Source: Archaeoglobaceae archaeon (GTDB lineage: Archaea > Halobacteriota > Archaeoglobi > Archaeoglobales > Archaeoglobaceae). Taken from it: 34,292 bases of DNA. The position numbers and the translations under genes were made by a program. Below, piece by piece: positions 5,199 to 32,020 of the stretch. The notes beneath the pieces are model-generated. The model saw only the letters and a program-made list of their open reading frames with translations, was not told the origin of the DNA and searched no databases. Every line of letters starts with the position of its first letter. Positions within the stretch are counted from its first letter, which is position 1. Location: contig WAKM01000047.1 of NCBI GenBank assembly GCA_015523335.1, positions 1 to 34,292 of the forward strand. Direction: 5' to 3'.

Positions 5199-8100
5199 GT
5201 GAGTATGGAGGTTAAGTTGCCATCCGAAGAGGAAGTTGACGAACTTGTCGGAGGCTTGAAGTTTAACACCACAGCTGAGATTGAAGTTCCCAAGAGGTTG
5301 ATCGATCAGGTTATCGGACAGGATCATGCCGTTGAAGCTATAAAGAAGGCCGCGGTGCAGAAGAGGCACGTAATGCTCATCGGCTCCCCGGGAACAGGTA
5401 AATCGATGCTAGCAAAAGCCATGGCTGAACTTCTACCGAAGGAAGAACTTGAAGACATCCTCGTATTCCCGAATCCGAAGGATCCGAATCAGCCGAAGAT
5501 CAAGGTCGTTCCGGCCGGTAAGGGAAGGGAGATAGTCGAAGCTTACAAGCAGGAAGCCCTGAAGAAGGCTCAGGCAAGGAACTTCTTCCTGATGATGCTC
5601 GTTTTCATGATAATCGGCTACACAATTTTGATTAGCCCTAAAGACTTCATCTGGGGCATCATTGCCGCGATACTGCTGTTCATGGTAGCAAGATACATGA
5701 TGCCGAGAGAGGAGAGAAACGTTCCAAAGCTCTTGGTTGACAATGCGGATAGAGAAACCGCCCCTTTTGAAGATGCAACCGGAGCTCATGCCGGCGCTTT
5801 GTTCGGAGACGTGCGTCACGATCCATTTCAGTGTTTTGAGGGAAATGAGTGGGTTATTGTGAAAAAAGATGGAAAATTGGAAAGATTAAAGCTGAAAGAT
5901 CTCGTAGATCAATTATTAGAAGAAAATTATAATATTACTGAAAAGAATGGAATTAGGGTATGCTACAAAGACGTATACAACGAAAACATCAGGATTTTAA
6001 CCAACGACGGTTTTGCCAGATTGCTATTCGTAAACAAGAGATTGGGGAAGCAGAAAATTAAGAATGTTATCAACCTAAGAAAGGATTTTTGGCTTACCTT
6101 AACTCCAGAGCACAAGGTCTACACAACGAAAGGTCTGAAAAGGGTTGATGAGATAACGGAAAGCGATGAATTGATTTCAAAGCCCATTACGATAATCGAC
6201 GAATACGATATCGCGAGGACGTATGATGAGAGGGAGTTTGAGAAGTTCGTAAATTACAACAGGTGGAGAAGATCAAAACTTGAGGTCGGATACAAGAGGG
6301 CTTCTAAGATTTTGGGCATCAAGCAGAGCACGATGAGATGGTGGTTTGCCGGAATGAAACCTAAAAGCGTCCAGCTCATCGAAAAGCTTAGATGCAAGGG
6401 TTTGATTCCTCTGAGAAGTGATGACCGAAGACTAGAGGATATCGCGTTGATATTGGGTGCATTATTCGGAGACGGTTGCATCGACAGAAATCTCAGCACC
6501 CTCAGCTTCACATCGAGTGAAAGGGAGATGGTTGAAAGGTTTGCCGAAATCGTTAGGCGTATATTCGGCGAAATTCTTTATGAGATAAAAGAAAACAGAG
6601 GTGCAAAAGGTGGAAGTTACCTATTCAGAACTTGGGATAGGAGCGTCATCAGGTTCTTCGTTGCTTTAGGTGCTCCGGTTGGCAAGAAAACGGAGATAAA
6701 GTTCGGATTTCCCGAATGGGTTCTTACGAGACCGAGCTTATTCTTAGCATTCGTCGATGGTCTGTTCAGTTCAGACGGTTGCGTTCCGAGATGGTCGTAT
6801 TCGAGAAGATTCAACGGATCGTTCGAGATTGCCCAAATTACGGATGATGTTGAAAACAAGATGGAGTTCTTTGAAACGATTTCAAGATTCCTCAGCAAGT
6901 TCGGCATAAAGAGCAAGCTTAGGATAGAAAAGCACGGAGATAGGTGGAAGATTAGGCTGATATTTGAGAACTCATTGGAAAATGCTGTAAGGTTCCTCAG
7001 CTTGATACCTATCAGCCTCTCAAACCGCAAACGATTCAAGTTCCTAAACGAGATCGAGATGTGTCTGGGAAAAGTTGAACTCGAAAACTTCGAGTTTATA
7101 ATCACGGAAGAGGAGGTGGACGTAACATACAACGTAACAACGGAAACCGGCAACCTGCTCGCCAACGGATTGCTCGTTAAGAACTCTGGCGGCTTGGAAA
7201 CTCCGGCACATGAGAGGGTTGAAGCCGGAGCAATTCATCGCGCTCATAAGGGAGTTCTATACATAGATGAGATAAACACGCTAACGATAGAATCTCAGCA
7301 GAAGCTACTTACAGCGATGCAGGAGAAGAAGTTCCCGATTACCGGACAATCGGAGCGTTCGAGCGGTGCGATGGTTAGGACCGAACCAGTGCCGTGCGAT
7401 TTCATACTCGTTGCTGCTGGAAACATGGACGCACTTATGGGGATGCATCCGGCTTTGAGGAGCAGGATCGAAGGTTACGGATACGAGATATACATGAACG
7501 ATACCATGCCGGATACCCCCGAAAACAGGAGGAAACTCGTCAGATTCGTGGCTCAGGAGGTCGTCAAGGACGGCAGAATTCCGCACTTCGACCGTTACGC
7601 TGTTGCTGAGATTATAAGAGAAGCTAAAAGAAGGGCCGGAAGGAGAGGACATCTAACGCTCAGACTGAGAGAGCTCGGAGGTCTTGTTAGAACGGCAGGA
7701 GACATCGCGAAGAGCGAAGGTTCCGATGTAGTCAAATTGGAGCACGTGCTTAAGGCTAAGAAGATAGCCAAAACGATTGAAGAGCAGTATGCGGATGAAT
7801 ACATTGAAAGGAGGAAGGACTACAAGCTATTTAAGATAGAGGGAGCCGAAATAGGAAGGGTGAACGGTTTAGCCGTAATAGGTCAATCTGCGGGAATAGT
7901 TCTTCCGATCATTGCGGAAATTACGCCGGCTTTAAGCAAGGAAGAGGGAAGGGTTATAGCCACTGGAAGGTTGCAGGAAATTGCGAGGGAGGCTGTTATG
8001 AACGTTTCCGCAATAATCAAGAAGTTCACAGGCAGGGACATCTCCAACTACGACATACACATACAGTTCGTCGGAACTTACGAAGGTGTAGAGGGAGATT

Positions 8101-8441
8101 CGGCAAGCATAAGCGTAGCCACAGCGGTTATATCGGCTTTAGAGGGTATTCCGGTTGATCAAAGCGTTGCGATGACCGGAAGTTTGAGCGTTAGAGGAGA
8201 TGTTCTGCCGGTTGGCGGGGTTACTCAGAAGATCGAAGCCGCTATTCAAGCCGGTCTGAAGAAGGTCATAATCCCGAAGGACAACTTGGACGATGTCTTA
8301 CTCGATGCCGAGCACAAGGGCAAAATTGAGATAATTCCCGTTTCGAGAATTGAAGAGGTCTTAGAGCACGCCTTGGTTGAATGCGATGAGAAGAGAAAGT
8401 TAATGGAGAAGTTCAAGCAGATTGTCTACTCCAATAATTAA
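5199..8441 (+). CDS. lonB: ATP-dependent protease LonB, interrupted by an intein
   Basis: The precursor is 1080 residues; removing the intein (212-662) leaves a 629-residue archaeal LonB, a membrane-bound AAA+ protease facing the cytoplasm. Walker A is GSPGTGKS (62-69). Two membrane helices lie at about 129-147 and 151-168, inserted between Walker A and B as is typical of LonB. Walker B is VLYIDE (686-691). The protease domain has the Ser-Lys dyad: Ser968 in GDSAS and Lys1011 in TQKIEA, 43 residues apart as in bacterial Lon. The start is GTG at 5199 (ATG at 5205 is possible); a TATA box at 5171-5179 favours a leaderless start near 5199. The protein would be inactive until splicing, since the intein separates Walker A from Walker B. 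Confidence 0.95.
5832..7184 (+). other. Intein in LonB (451 residues, with LAGLIDADG endonuclease)
   Basis: In-frame intein between host residues ...RHDPFQ and SGGLET, which join cleanly across the gap. It begins with Cys212 (CFEGNEW) and ends ...GLLVKN before a Ser+1. Block B is visible as LTPEHKVYT. Two dodecapeptide motifs, LGALFGDGC (419-427) and [10 protein letters not shown] (519-528), each keep an acidic residue, so the homing endonuclease may be active. A helix-turn-helix-like stretch ([18 protein letters not shown], from residue 365) precedes the first motif and may bind DNA. The penultimate residue is Lys rather than the usual His. From memory, Pyrococcus Lon proteins carry inteins at a comparable site. 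Confidence 0.95.
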
Positions 8442-8620: not shown

Positions 8621-9508
8621 ATGAAGTTGAAGCTAACGGTAGCAACATACTCTGCGGTAGTTCTGGTTAAGTTCGTATGCTACGCGATTACCGGATACCT
8701 CGCGATGCTTGCGGAAGCCCTACACAATGTCGTCGATTTGCTCATATTTTCGGCTTTACTATACTCAGAGAAGGTCTCCGCAAAGCCCGCCGATCACCTC
8801 CATCCTTTAGGACACGGACTCGCAAAAAATCTGAGTGGAGTTGTAGTTGCCGTGGTATTTATAACGGTCGTAGCTTTCGAGCTTTTTTTGGAGGGAATCG
8901 AAAGGATCCTGCATCCTTCAGCCGGCAGATACCCGGAGTTCGCTGTAATCGTCCTCGTTGCAACGATATTGCCACCCGCCCTATTGACCTTGATCTACCG
9001 TGGTGAAAGGAGCTCTACGGAAGAGTCGGCTTTTGCGGAGTTGATAAATGACATAGCCTCATCACTCGGAGCTATTTTCGGAATATACTTCAGTTCAATC
9101 GGATATCCGATTGCTGATGGCCTTGCATCTATTTTCATAGCCGTGCTGATAAGTCTTAACGGCTACAGGCTCTTCAAAACTAACGCAAGCTATTTGCTCG
9201 GAAGAAGTCCAGACGAAAGTTTTTACGAGAGGGTTAAGGCTATCGTAGAGTCGTTTCCAGAGGTTGAAGATGTCCACGACATCATAGCCATATACATGGG
9301 TGAGAACAGAATCCACTTGGACATGCACGTAACGGTCGATGGCTCGATGAGCGTTAGGGATGCTGATGAATTAACGGCGAGAATTGCTAAGAAGATTTTG
9401 CAAGAAATACCGGAAGTCGCATACGTTCTGATTCACGTTTGTGCTGAGAAGGGCAAAGAATTCAAAACGACATACGATTCGGTTATGAGAAGAGTCTTCA
9501 AGATGTAG
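8621..9508 (+). CDS. Cation diffusion facilitator (CDF) metal exporter
   Basis: A 295-residue membrane transporter exporting divalent metal (Zn, Fe, Mn or similar) in exchange for protons. About six membrane helices fill residues 5-185, followed by a cytoplasmic domain (about 200-285) with the family fold (VEDVHDIIAIYMGENRIHLD). Helix 2 has the metal site H35xxxD39 (ALHNVVD). In helix 5 the usual HxxxD or DxxxD site reads E140xxxD144 (ELIND). The TM2-TM3 loop has His-rich DHLHPLGHG. The start at 8621 is leaderless, with a TATA box at about 8593-8603. The substrate cannot be settled by sequence alone. Confidence 0.88.
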   Translation: MKLKLTVATYSAVVLVKFVCYAITGYLAMLAEALHNVVDLLIFSALLYSEKVSAKPADHLHPLGHGLAKNLSGVVVAVVFITVVAFELFLEGIERILHPSAGRYPEFAVIVLVATILPPALLTLIYRGERSSTEESAFAELINDIASSLGAIFGIYFSSIGYPIADGLASIFIAVLISLNGYRLFKTNASYLLGRSPDESFYERVKAIVESFPEVEDVHDIIAIYMGENRIHLDMHVTVDGSMSVRDADELTARIAKKILQEIPEVAYVLIHVCAEKGKEFKTTYDSVMRRVFKM

Positions 9509-9566
9509 CCCGTCTGGAGCCCACGGGACATCATGCTTCTCAGTCCCGCCGGGTTCTAACGGGCAC
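9503..9566 (-). ncRNA. H/ACA-type guide RNA (predicted)
   Basis: Read on the minus strand, this GC-rich spacer folds as one H/ACA hairpin. The lower stem GCCCGT (9564-9559) pairs with ACGGGC (9513-9508), and an ACA box lies one base further on (9506-9504). The upper stem CGGGAC (9548-9543) pairs with GTCCCG (9529-9524) and can extend by a few pairs. The apical loop holds CUGA, five bases, then AUGAUG: the L7Ae-binding K-loop arrangement. The arms between the stems form a pseudouridylation pocket. The distance from the GCUC guide arm to ACA is 14 bases, as in the family. The 3' end overlaps the stop codon of the CDF gene on the other strand. A possible promoter (GATATC-centred AT stretch near 9590-9600) is weak. 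Confidence 0.65.
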
Positions 9567-9639
9567 ACATCGTTTGCTGAATGGAAAGATATCTTTTTCG
9601 CATCAACATTTTTATACTTTGCCAATCATTTTTACATCA

Positions 9640-11889
9640 ATGGAAGCTGAGATCTGGGTCGAAAAGTACAGACCGAAAACGCTCGATGAAGTCGTTGGGC
9701 AGGATGAGGTAATTAAAAGGCTCAAGAGTTACGTTCAAAAGAAGAACATCCCCCATCTGCTTTTTGCCGGTCCTCCGGGAACCGGGAAGACAGCTACCGC
9801 CATCGCCTTAGCAAGGGATCTATTTGGCGAGAATTGGCGAGATAACTTTATAGAGATGAACGCTTCAGTAACCCCAGACACACCTATCCTCGTAAGAATC
9901 AACGGAGTGATCAAGAGAACTACGTTTGAAGAGATCGATAGAATGTTTTTCAAAGACGAAAAAGAAGAATACGTGGTTCCGATCAATTTGGAAACTCTAA
10001 GCTTCCGCGAAGATGTTGGATTTTATCCCGTTTCGTTCATAGCAAGACACAAAGCTGATAGAATTCTGAAGATAAAGTTCGAAGGCGGAGAGGTGAAAAC
10101 AACACCAGATCACTCGGTCATGGTTCTAAACGAAAAAGGGGAGATAGTCTCTAAGAGAGCTGACGAACTCAAGAAGGGCGACTTTCTGCTGTCGTTTAAG
10201 AAATGCTTAGAGGGGTCAGAGTTATCGATAAATCTGCTGGAATATCTGCAGAGCTACAACAACCCGAAGCTAAGAACCGTGCTGACGGAGTTCCCGATCA
10301 ACGAGCAGACATCTTGGATAATGGGACTATTTTTGGCTGAAGGCTGTCTGAGTTTTAGAAACGGAACTTCTGGACAAGTAATATTTACAGTAAAAGAGCA
10401 GGAACTAATTGAACGAGTAAAGAGCTTCGGTTGCGCTTTTGGCATTTCGACATACACCCAGCCGGCATATTCCGGCTTTGATAGAAGTAGAGCATCAGCC
10501 GTTCACGTTAAACTTCTGAATACTCAGCTCGCAAGGTTCTTCAGAGATATCTTCAGCGGGCATGTAGCAAGATCGAAGAGAGTTCCAGAGATAATATTTA
10601 ACAGCACATTGCGAAACAGACTTTTGTTCCTAATGGGTTACATGGGTGACGGATGTGGAACTTGGGGAAGATACGTAAGATATACCTCCGTATCTAAGGA
10701 CATATTGATAGACATCGCTTGGCTCGGTAGGATTTCTGGTTTAGAGACATCGGTGTTCGATAGGGAAGTAAGACTCGTTTGGGATGTGTTCTCATACGTA
10801 AGATCAGAGTTACTACCAGTTGAGCCGTTTGAGATGTTTTTCAAGCAGATAGACGGAAAGATAGACATCAATTGGAAGTATCTACTTAGACATCAACTCT
10901 ACAGCGGAAAGAGAAGAGTTAAGAAGTCTACACTGCTGAAGATTCTGAAAGCTATTAGAACTGAAGAGCTGGATGAGGAAGAAAGAAAGACGTATTTGAG
11001 ACTCAAAGCTTTAGCTGAATCCAGCCTGTATGCTGTGGAGATCAAGGAGATCGAAAAGATGAGCTACGATGGATGGGTTTACGACTTCAGCGTTCCGAAT
11101 TCAGAGGTGTTCTTCGGCGGAACTACACCCGTTTTGTTGCACAACTCGGATGAGAGAGGAATAGATGTCGTTAGACACAAAATAAAGGAATTTGCAAGGA
11201 CTGCTCCTATTGGCGGTGCTCCGTTCAAGATCATATTCTTGGATGAAGCCGACGCTCTGACTGCAGATGCACAAGCGGCGTTGAGAAGAACCATGGAGAT
11301 GTATTCGAAAACTTGCAGATTCATACTGAGTTGTAACTACGTCAGCAGAATCATAGAGCCGATACAGTCGAGATGTGCGGTATTTAAGTTTAAACCCGTT
11401 CCGCCGGAGGCTATGAAGAAGAGACTGCTTGAGATAGCAGAGAAGGAAGGCTTAAAGATCACGGAAGACGGGCTCGAAGCACTAATCTACATAGCGAACG
11501 GAGACTTCAGAAAGGCTATAAACGCCCTGCAAGGTGCCGCAGCCTTCGGAGAAGTTATCGACGCCGAAGCCATATACCAGATAACCGCTACTGCTCGTCC
11601 GGAAGAGATCAAGAAACTGCTTGAAACTGCTCTGGAAGGCAGATTCATGGAAGCTCGACAGATGCTCGACAGAATGATGGTGGAATACGGAATGAGCGGG
11701 GAAGATGTAATTTCACAGCTTTTCAGAGAGATAATAGCCTCGAAAATCGATGAGAGAACGAAAGTGATGTTAATAGATAGGCTCGGCGAGATAGATTTCA
11801 GGCTTACCGAAGGAGCGCACGACAGAATTCAATTGGACGCCTACTTAGCATATCTCGCAACTGTCGGTAAGCGGAAGAAAGAATCGTAA
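9640..11889 (+). CDS. rfcS: Replication factor C small subunit, interrupted by an intein
   Basis: The clamp-loader ATPase that loads PCNA on DNA at the replication fork. The precursor is 749 residues from ATG 9640; without the intein it is 322, normal for RfcS. Walker A is GPPGTGKT (44-51), Walker B is IIFLDEADAL, and the arginine-finger motif is SRC (IQSRCAVFKF). The C-terminal collar follows. An upstream in-frame ATG at 9574 would add 22 residues unlike RFC; the family start MEAEIWVEKYRPKTLDEV and a TATA box at 9609-9618 favour 9640. The large RFC subunit, often adjacent in archaea, is absent from the window. The intein splits Walker A from Walker B, so activity needs splicing. Confidence 0.95.
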   Translation: MEAEIWVEKYRPKTLDEVVGQDEVIKRLKSYVQKKNIPHLLFAGPPGTGKTATAIALARDLFGENWRDNFIEMNASVTPDTPILVRINGVIKRTTFEEIDRMFFKDEKEEYVVPINLETLSFREDVGFYPVSFIARHKADRILKIKFEGGEVKTTPDHSVMVLNEKGEIVSKRADELKKGDFLLSFKKCLEGSELSINLLEYLQSYNNPKLRTVLTEFPINEQTSWIMGLFLAEGCLSFRNGTSGQVIFTVKEQELIERVKSFGCAFGISTYTQPAYSGFDRSRASAVHVKLLNTQLARFFRDIFSGHVARSKRVPEIIFNSTLRNRLLFLMGYMGDGCGTWGRYVRYTSVSKDILIDIAWLGRISGLETSVFDREVRLVWDVFSYVRSELLPVEPFEMFFKQIDGKIDINWKYLLRHQLYSGKRRVKKSTLLKILKAIRTEELDEEERKTYLRLKALAESSLYAVEIKEIEKMSYDGWVYDFSVPNSEVFFGGTTPVLLHNSDERGIDVVRHKIKEFARTAPIGGAPFKIIFLDEADALTADAQAALRRTMEMYSKTCRFILSCNYVSRIIEPIQSRCAVFKFKPVPPEAMKKRLLEIAEKEGLKITEDGLEALIYIANGDFRKAINALQGAAAFGEVIDAEAIYQITATARPEEIKKLLETALEGRFMEARQMLDRMMVEYGMSGEDVISQLFREIIASKIDERTKVMLIDRLGEIDFRLTEGAHDRIQLDAYLAYLATVGKRKKES
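9865..11145 (+). other. Intein in RFC small subunit (427 residues, with LAGLIDADG endonuclease)
   Basis: Inserted within the conserved host motif, between ...EMNA and SDERGID. It starts with Ser76 (SVTPDTPILVRING) and ends with the canonical LLHN before Ser+1. Block B is seen as TTPDHSVMV. The dodecapeptides are MGLFLAEGC (228-236) and MGYMGDGC (332-339); both keep acidic residues, so the endonuclease may be functional. Ser1 rather than Cys1 distinguishes it from the LonB intein. Confidence 0.95.
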
Positions 11890-31934: not shown

Positions 31935-31948
31935 TACGTCCACCTCCG

Positions 31949-32020
31949 AAAGATAGGCGTCATCAGCCCCCTTGTGGGACAGTTAGGGTGGACGCCATCA
32001 CCCGTTGGGGGGTTATCTTT
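31949..32020 (-). promoter_or_regulatory. Fluoride riboswitch (crcB motif)
   Basis: Read on the minus strand, the leader contains every hallmark of the crcB fluoride aptamer: GGGTGATGGCGTCCACCC (32003-31986), then TAACTGTCCC, a short loop, GGGGGCTGATGACGCC (31971-31956). GGCGTC (31996-31991) pairs with GACGCC (31961-31956); GGGTG pairs with CACCC; the CTGATG after the second hairpin is nearly invariant in the class. It compares closely with the Thermotoga petrophila aptamer as I remember it (GGGCGAUGAGGC...GGGCUGAUGGCC). An outer 7-bp helix (AAAGATA, 32020-32014, with TATCTTT, 31955-31949) closes the structure just before the Shine-Dalgarno site. The regulated gene is NuoH-like, at 31934. Confidence 0.93.

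Follow-up and report, generated by a model that had tools for sequence, protein, structure and literature searches.

The window analysed here is the whole of contig WAKM01000047.1 (C47; 34,292 nt) of the Archaeoglobaceae archaeon assembly GCA_015523335.1, labelled G000. On its minus strand, flanked on one side by a gene for a cation-efflux (CDF) metal transporter and on the other by an intein-split replication-factor-C gene, lies a short element predicted to encode an H/ACA guide RNA. The features of the locus are as follows:

8621-9508: CDF (cation-efflux, metal transporter) open reading frame, with PF01545 and PF16916 from the family search
9588-9601, minus strand: promoter-like, BRE/TATA-like block GCGAAAAAGATATC, 24-37 nt upstream of the lower stem
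9504-9564, minus strand: putative H/ACA guide RNA, 61-nt core, from a covariance model match and covariation in 11 of 13 pairs
9559-9564, minus strand: 5′ strand of the lower stem, GCCCGU, with all six of its pairs showing compensatory changes across family members
9552-9558, minus strand: left (5′) guide arm UAGAACC, in which GAACC pairs with GGUUU of both candidate targets
9543-9551, minus strand: 5′ strand of the GA (upper) stem, CGGCGGGAC, with covariation
9530-9542, minus strand: K-loop UGA-GAAGCA-UGA-U with tandem G.A pairs, GA...UGA being invariant in 19 distinct rows
9521-9529, minus strand: 3′ strand of the GA stem, GUCCCGUGG, whose last G, in the 16S register, opens and becomes part of the 3′ arm
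9514-9520, minus strand: right (3′) guide arm GCUCCAG, which in the 16S register starts at 9521 and reads GGCUCCAG
9508-9513, minus strand: 3′ strand of the lower stem, ACGGGC, pairing with GCCCGU, with covariation
9504-9506, minus strand: ACA box, with CA invariant and the first A present in 18 of 19 distinct rows

The CDF reading frame and the RNA share only positions 9504-9508, that is, the ACA and the CDF stop codon, an overlap of five bases, and the RNA gene is essentially intergenic; the sequence-only reading had it run antisense to the last part of the CDF gene, a description that is not meaningful for so short an overlap. Upstream, 19 family members have an AT-rich block in common, in which the AT fraction between −31 and −25 is 0.79-1.0 and which often has GCGAAA-like bases in front of it, and this promoter-like block is what an archaeal promoter would be expected to look like. 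Elsewhere in the window, the replication factor C small subunit gene (9640-11889, plus strand) is interrupted by an intein (PF14890, LAGLIDADG), and a long open reading frame at 5199-8441 on the plus strand resembles an archaeal Lon-type protease with a seeming intein-like insertion, as judged by eye from its translation. A fluoride riboswitch (RF01734, 47.7 bits) is found at 31947-32011 on the minus strand, and a plasmid search gives no match.

The lower stem, pocket, upper stem, K-loop and ACA spacing that had been drawn for the minus strand are all found at those places, and the covariance model matches 9564-9504. The stretch alone folds at −31.9 kcal/mol compared with −19.7 ± 3.0 for its shuffles (z −4.0; 0 of 200), with one G.G mismatch in the GA stem. 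Counted from the C-G pair closing the originally drawn pocket (layer 12), the ACA lies at 14 nt; from the layer-11 G.G it lies at 15 nt and from the layer-10 pair at 16 nt, and across the family the distance is 11-16 nt depending on the register. The 14-15 nt spacing given in PMC4652768 is found in the window at layer 12 or 11.

A DNA search of 40 relatives finds copies of the RNA in other genera. A covariance model built from four copies matches in 33 of 59 genomes of the class Archaeoglobi, and reading of these matches sorts them into two groups. In 23 genomes, from 10 of the 16 genera, the RNA is of this family; the other 10 genomes have no more than a different guide, an RNA with other arms and a weak Rfam match to Pab91. 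When the model is rebuilt from 21 copies and run on 392 genomes of the phylum, 25 genomes match at E≤0.01, all in Archaeoglobi and comprising the same 23 family genomes and two with the Pab91-like RNA; this search used stricter filters, and both it and the 59-genome search may miss weak copies. Neither search finds the family RNA in A. fulgidus or in genus g10, so that the modification, if made there, would use something else.

The alignment (A6) and rebuilt model (R2) represent 21 of the 23 family genomes, leaving out G003 (whose motif is the same as that of G001), the outlier G016 and the second copies at G014:C1:884354 and G053:C28. In the 21 aligned copies 97.1% of 243 pair cells are paired, a figure that falls to about 50% when the structure is slid by one column, and changes on both sides of a pair occur in 11 of the 13 pairs, which none of 500 shuffles reaches. 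As judged by G-U wobble pairs, 239 of 244 cells pair on the minus strand and 222 on the opposite strand, which identifies the minus strand as the RNA strand. While the stems covary, little variation is seen in the unpaired parts, namely the K-loop, the ACA and, in the arms, the cores ACC/AAC and G-CU; in the left arm A12 is invariant. Taken together, the covariation, K-loop, ACA and conservation strongly support the earlier proposal of an unannotated H/ACA guide RNA, and we put the probability that minus-strand 9564-9504 encodes one at roughly 0.95.

Several members depart from the common pattern. Layers 4-10 of the GA stem pair in all members displayed except G016 and a Ferroglobus-like second copy. 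The G016 member (G016:C9:13039-13095) has an A.C at layer 10 and a right arm, GCAAU, that does not fit 23S U2580 and matches at most three bases of the 16S site discussed below. In genus g11, second family copies at G014:C1:884354-884411 and G053:C28:1897-1954 retain a left arm AGAACC and have a right arm changed to GCACA; these copies are perhaps retargeted. In G004, from the same genus as the window, the left arm is changed to GCACC, which weakens both candidate sites. The window's own genome also has a second H/ACA-like RNA (G000:C37:14001-14058, minus strand), found in G001 and G002 as well, with the same K-loop as the window RNA and other arms (GCCCGCCAGCCAUGCG...CCACACGGCGGGCUACA).

Structure, conservation and arm complementarity are results of computation; transcription, protein binding, catalysis and the choice of site are steps that we infer. 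The K-loop is, by analogy, an L7Ae site, and judging from PMC6138745 and PMC3726423 on reconstituted archaeal particles, L7Ae would hold the K-loop, Cbf5 (as Cbf5-Nop10-Gar1) would bind the stems and the ACA, and Nop10 would bridge Cbf5 and L7Ae. By the same analogy, the pocket would clamp the rRNA segment and Cbf5 would isomerise the flipped uridine to pseudouridine. A search for an H/ACA protein, Nop10, finds it in the window's own genome. RluC, which makes pseudouridine 2580 of 23S rRNA in E. coli, belongs to the RluA/RsuA family PF00849; a search of the own genome for this family gives no match, whereas ten bacterial controls matched, so that no RluC-like enzyme is available there.

At two rRNA sites the sequences that flank a U-N dinucleotide can pair with the arms, and the RNA probably guides pseudouridine formation at one of them at least. 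The first, 23S U2580, had been proposed from the sequence, and its number is borne out by counting on the E. coli 23S record. As the own assembly has no 23S match, the arms were compared with the 23S of G004, where the complementary segment is present and reads GUGAGC-U-G-GGUUUAG; G004 23S therefore served in the target scans. All 27 loci at which the E. coli 2580 segment was found, among 30 fetched, several of them from one genome, read GAGCUGGGUUUAGACC. In the register first drawn the window RNA pairs with GAGC-U-G-GGUUU through 4+5 bp, a match as short as anticipated, the fifth left-arm pair being a U-G wobble because the G004 segment reads GGUUUAG. From layer 12 the window and g12 RNAs fit 23S with a normal two-base spacer, and in this 12-layer, 14-nt register U2580 ranks first of 641 uridines for the window RNA. 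The site is also that of the known Pyrococcus guide Pab35.1. PMC4652768 pairs Pa35.1 of P. abyssi with L2672, and U2580 equates with L2672 on the basis of this pairing, the HgcF arm match and an equal distance of 13 nt to the Pab91/Af46 site (from L2672 to L2685, and from U2580 to the uridine at E. coli 2593). The anchor for that uridine is the single offset, out of 31, at which each of the four A. fulgidus sites tried is a U. The proposed target thus stands as one of two leading candidates, the original reading having missed a look-alike in 16S rRNA.

This second site, GGAGCC-U-G-CGGUUU, appears once the pocket boundary is left free. It corresponds to E. coli U950 by direct count and to A. 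fulgidus S909, with the numbering checked by a U at both S1004 and S1167. The window 3′ arm pairs with it through 7 bp, more strongly than with 23S, and U950 ranks first of 641 uridines in its own register. In the window and g12, 7-8 bp form with 16S from layer 11 and a third unpaired target base is required, so that the window spacer is an exact two bases for 23S and three for 16S. PMC4652768 counts S922 and L2672 of P. abyssi as true targets and notes that two guides could reach each of them, and in that species both positions appear to carry pseudouridine. P. abyssi S922 would equal A. fulgidus S909 if the 13-base offset between S1017 and S1004 holds; a 16S search of Thermococcus found none (0 of 4 genomes), and the equivalence is drawn from that offset.

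Scans of the rRNAs single out these two uridines and favour neither over the other, since the leader changes with the spacer and layer rule. In a family scan of all rRNA uridines in seven genomes with seven guides (two from one genus) and GA-stem layers 10-12, allowing a third spacer base at a penalty places 16S first (−121.5; six of seven genomes), 23S second (−94.2; all seven) and the next best context at −57.7 (three of seven). With a strict two-base spacer 23S leads at −70.5 (five of seven) and 16S follows at −58.9 (three of seven), and with layer 10 alone and the strict spacer 16S (−58.9; three of seven) is the one of the two that survives, barely ahead of other sites at −57.7, with 23S not among the best eight. 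A geometry-free ViennaRNA duplex scan with the window arms, which ranks 16S 8th and 23S 264th of 641 uridines, supports neither site clearly, and when the pocket is flexible 23S comes 13th with the window RNA, its rank with the other guides ranging from 2nd to 33rd. Arms cut with 23S in mind put it first in 11 of 12 Archaeoglobi guides and third in G004, a ranking biased by arm boundaries chosen for 23S and including a Ferroglobus-like second copy. For the window, target scans used its own 16S and the G004 23S, and in the rank test the G009 16S stood in for that of G026. The register comparison covers 20 RNAs, of which one is a second copy and the other 19 are family members; it omits G001, G003, G005 and G053, the G005 core being identical to that of G054. 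In most relatives 16S pairs better than 23S, and in the window's genus 16S offers the stronger pairing and 23S the cleaner pocket geometry.

It is possible, if tentative, that one RNA modifies both look-alike uridines by sliding its pocket by one base pair. The slide would take place at the foot of the GA stem, along a weak G.G/C-G step where the two registers differ by one pair, and individual lineages may have drifted toward a single target, g6, g7 and g16 toward 16S and g4 and g15 toward 23S. A guide serving 16S U950 only, the equivalent of P. abyssi S922, is similarly conceivable and, taken by itself, unlikely. An exact fit under the rules of PMC4652768 (10-layer GA stem, 14-15 nt to the ACA) is seen in g6, g7 and g16, and with a 14-nt distance, a two-base spacer and 5+6 or 5+7 bp it occurs in six genomes (G009, G052, G026, G060, G062 and G010); 16S also has the highest family score, and the window, G002, G004, G050, G015 and G054 form a 5′ duplex of 7-8 bp with energies from −16.5 to −18.3 kcal/mol. 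Against an exclusive 16S role, g1 and g12 need a third unpaired target base or a C.C mismatch, reported to be unfavourable, and the pairing is broken in G049 and G025, which have no 16S pairing next to the pocket and fit only 23S.

These two genomes favour the reading first proposed, a guide for 23S U2580 only as a counterpart of Pyrococcus Pab35.1, which on balance we regard as doubtful. The first rank in the 12-layer register and the lead under a strict spacer speak for it, as do the arm cores GAACC and GCUC that it has in common with HgcF motif 1, and HgcF/Pab35, the 23S guide of Thermococcales, is not found in 40 relatives. However, 11-12 stem layers are needed in the family and 12 in the window, against the 10-layer rule of PMC4652768, which reports departures from 10 as deleterious; the window requires layer 11 or 12 for any good target. 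The 5′ duplex with 23S is just 4-6 bp in most members, the 8-bp run of G057 extends into its lower stem, and the exact 10-layer fold of g6, g7 and g16 points to 16S.

It is very improbable that the element, in place of guiding modification, targets the CDF transcript as an antisense RNA or a terminator-like hairpin. Its position at the CDF stop codon and the g12 copies that are followed by similar CDF-like sequence speak for this; the five-base overlap, the invariant K-loop, ACA and arm cores beside stems that vary by compensation, the dissimilar flanks in other genera and a search of the locus that found no terminator-like site speak against it.

A guide of one or both rRNA sites would supply Archaeoglobi with an RNA for pseudouridines that the validated A. 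fulgidus guides listed in the literature consulted do not serve, these being directed to S1004, S1167, L2601 and L2639. PMC2584109 holds pseudouridine at 23S 2580 to be unlikely in Haloferax on the ground that this organism has no RluC-type enzyme, though the modification was reported in Halobacterium. A guide RNA would be a simple answer for archaeal 23S 2580, as in Pyrococcus. A two-register pocket, if true, would allow the stem-length rules published for archaeal H/ACA guides to be tested cleanly on a natural example.

Among known systems, the closest in its arms is HgcF/Pab35 motif 1 (RF00058) of Pyrococcus and Thermococcus, a guide for 23S L2672 whose arm cores GAACC and GCUC are those of the window RNA, whose target GUGAGC-U-G-GGUUU is the 23S site that the window RNA also fits, and which likewise has a pocket and an ACA. 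HgcF differs in build: it has several hairpins and a long apical part and measures about 168 nt, whereas the window RNA consists of one 61-nt hairpin that bears a K-loop. The HgcF arms (UUGAACC and GCUCACG in the Thermococcus hairpin) pair through 7 bp on each side compared with 4+5 at 23S here. An Rfam search gives no family match at the window site at E≤5, and at E≤1 RF00058 finds nothing either in the window's genome or among its relatives (0 of 40). Pab91 and A. fulgidus Af46 (RF02795; 23S L2685 and L2639) resemble the window RNA in having a single hairpin, a K-loop and an ACA, and the Pab91-type K-loop GAGAAGCAUGA is so alike that the window model finds it as a weaker match; their arms are different, the right arm of the Pab91-like A. 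fulgidus RNA beginning CGGUU, and so is their uridine, GACCG-U-C-GUGAG (E. coli 2593), and the window locus has no match to RF02795 either. That Pab91-like RNA lies at about 413565-413622 of contig C1 in genome G040, which we take to be A. fulgidus. It matches RF02795 with an E of 0.0024, and its target and this match indicate that it is probably Af46. The haloarchaeal Hvo1 hairpin (23S 2621, E. coli 2586) is also an archaeal H/ACA guide for the peptidyl-transferase segment, with a target six bases from U2580. A literature search found no paper naming the window RNA, with supplements outside its scope, so that an earlier prediction may exist. Belonging by model match to neither HgcF/Pab35 nor Pab91, the window RNA, with its possibly unusual two-register pocket, is by its sequence features a new family of a known kind, the archaeal H/ACA guide.
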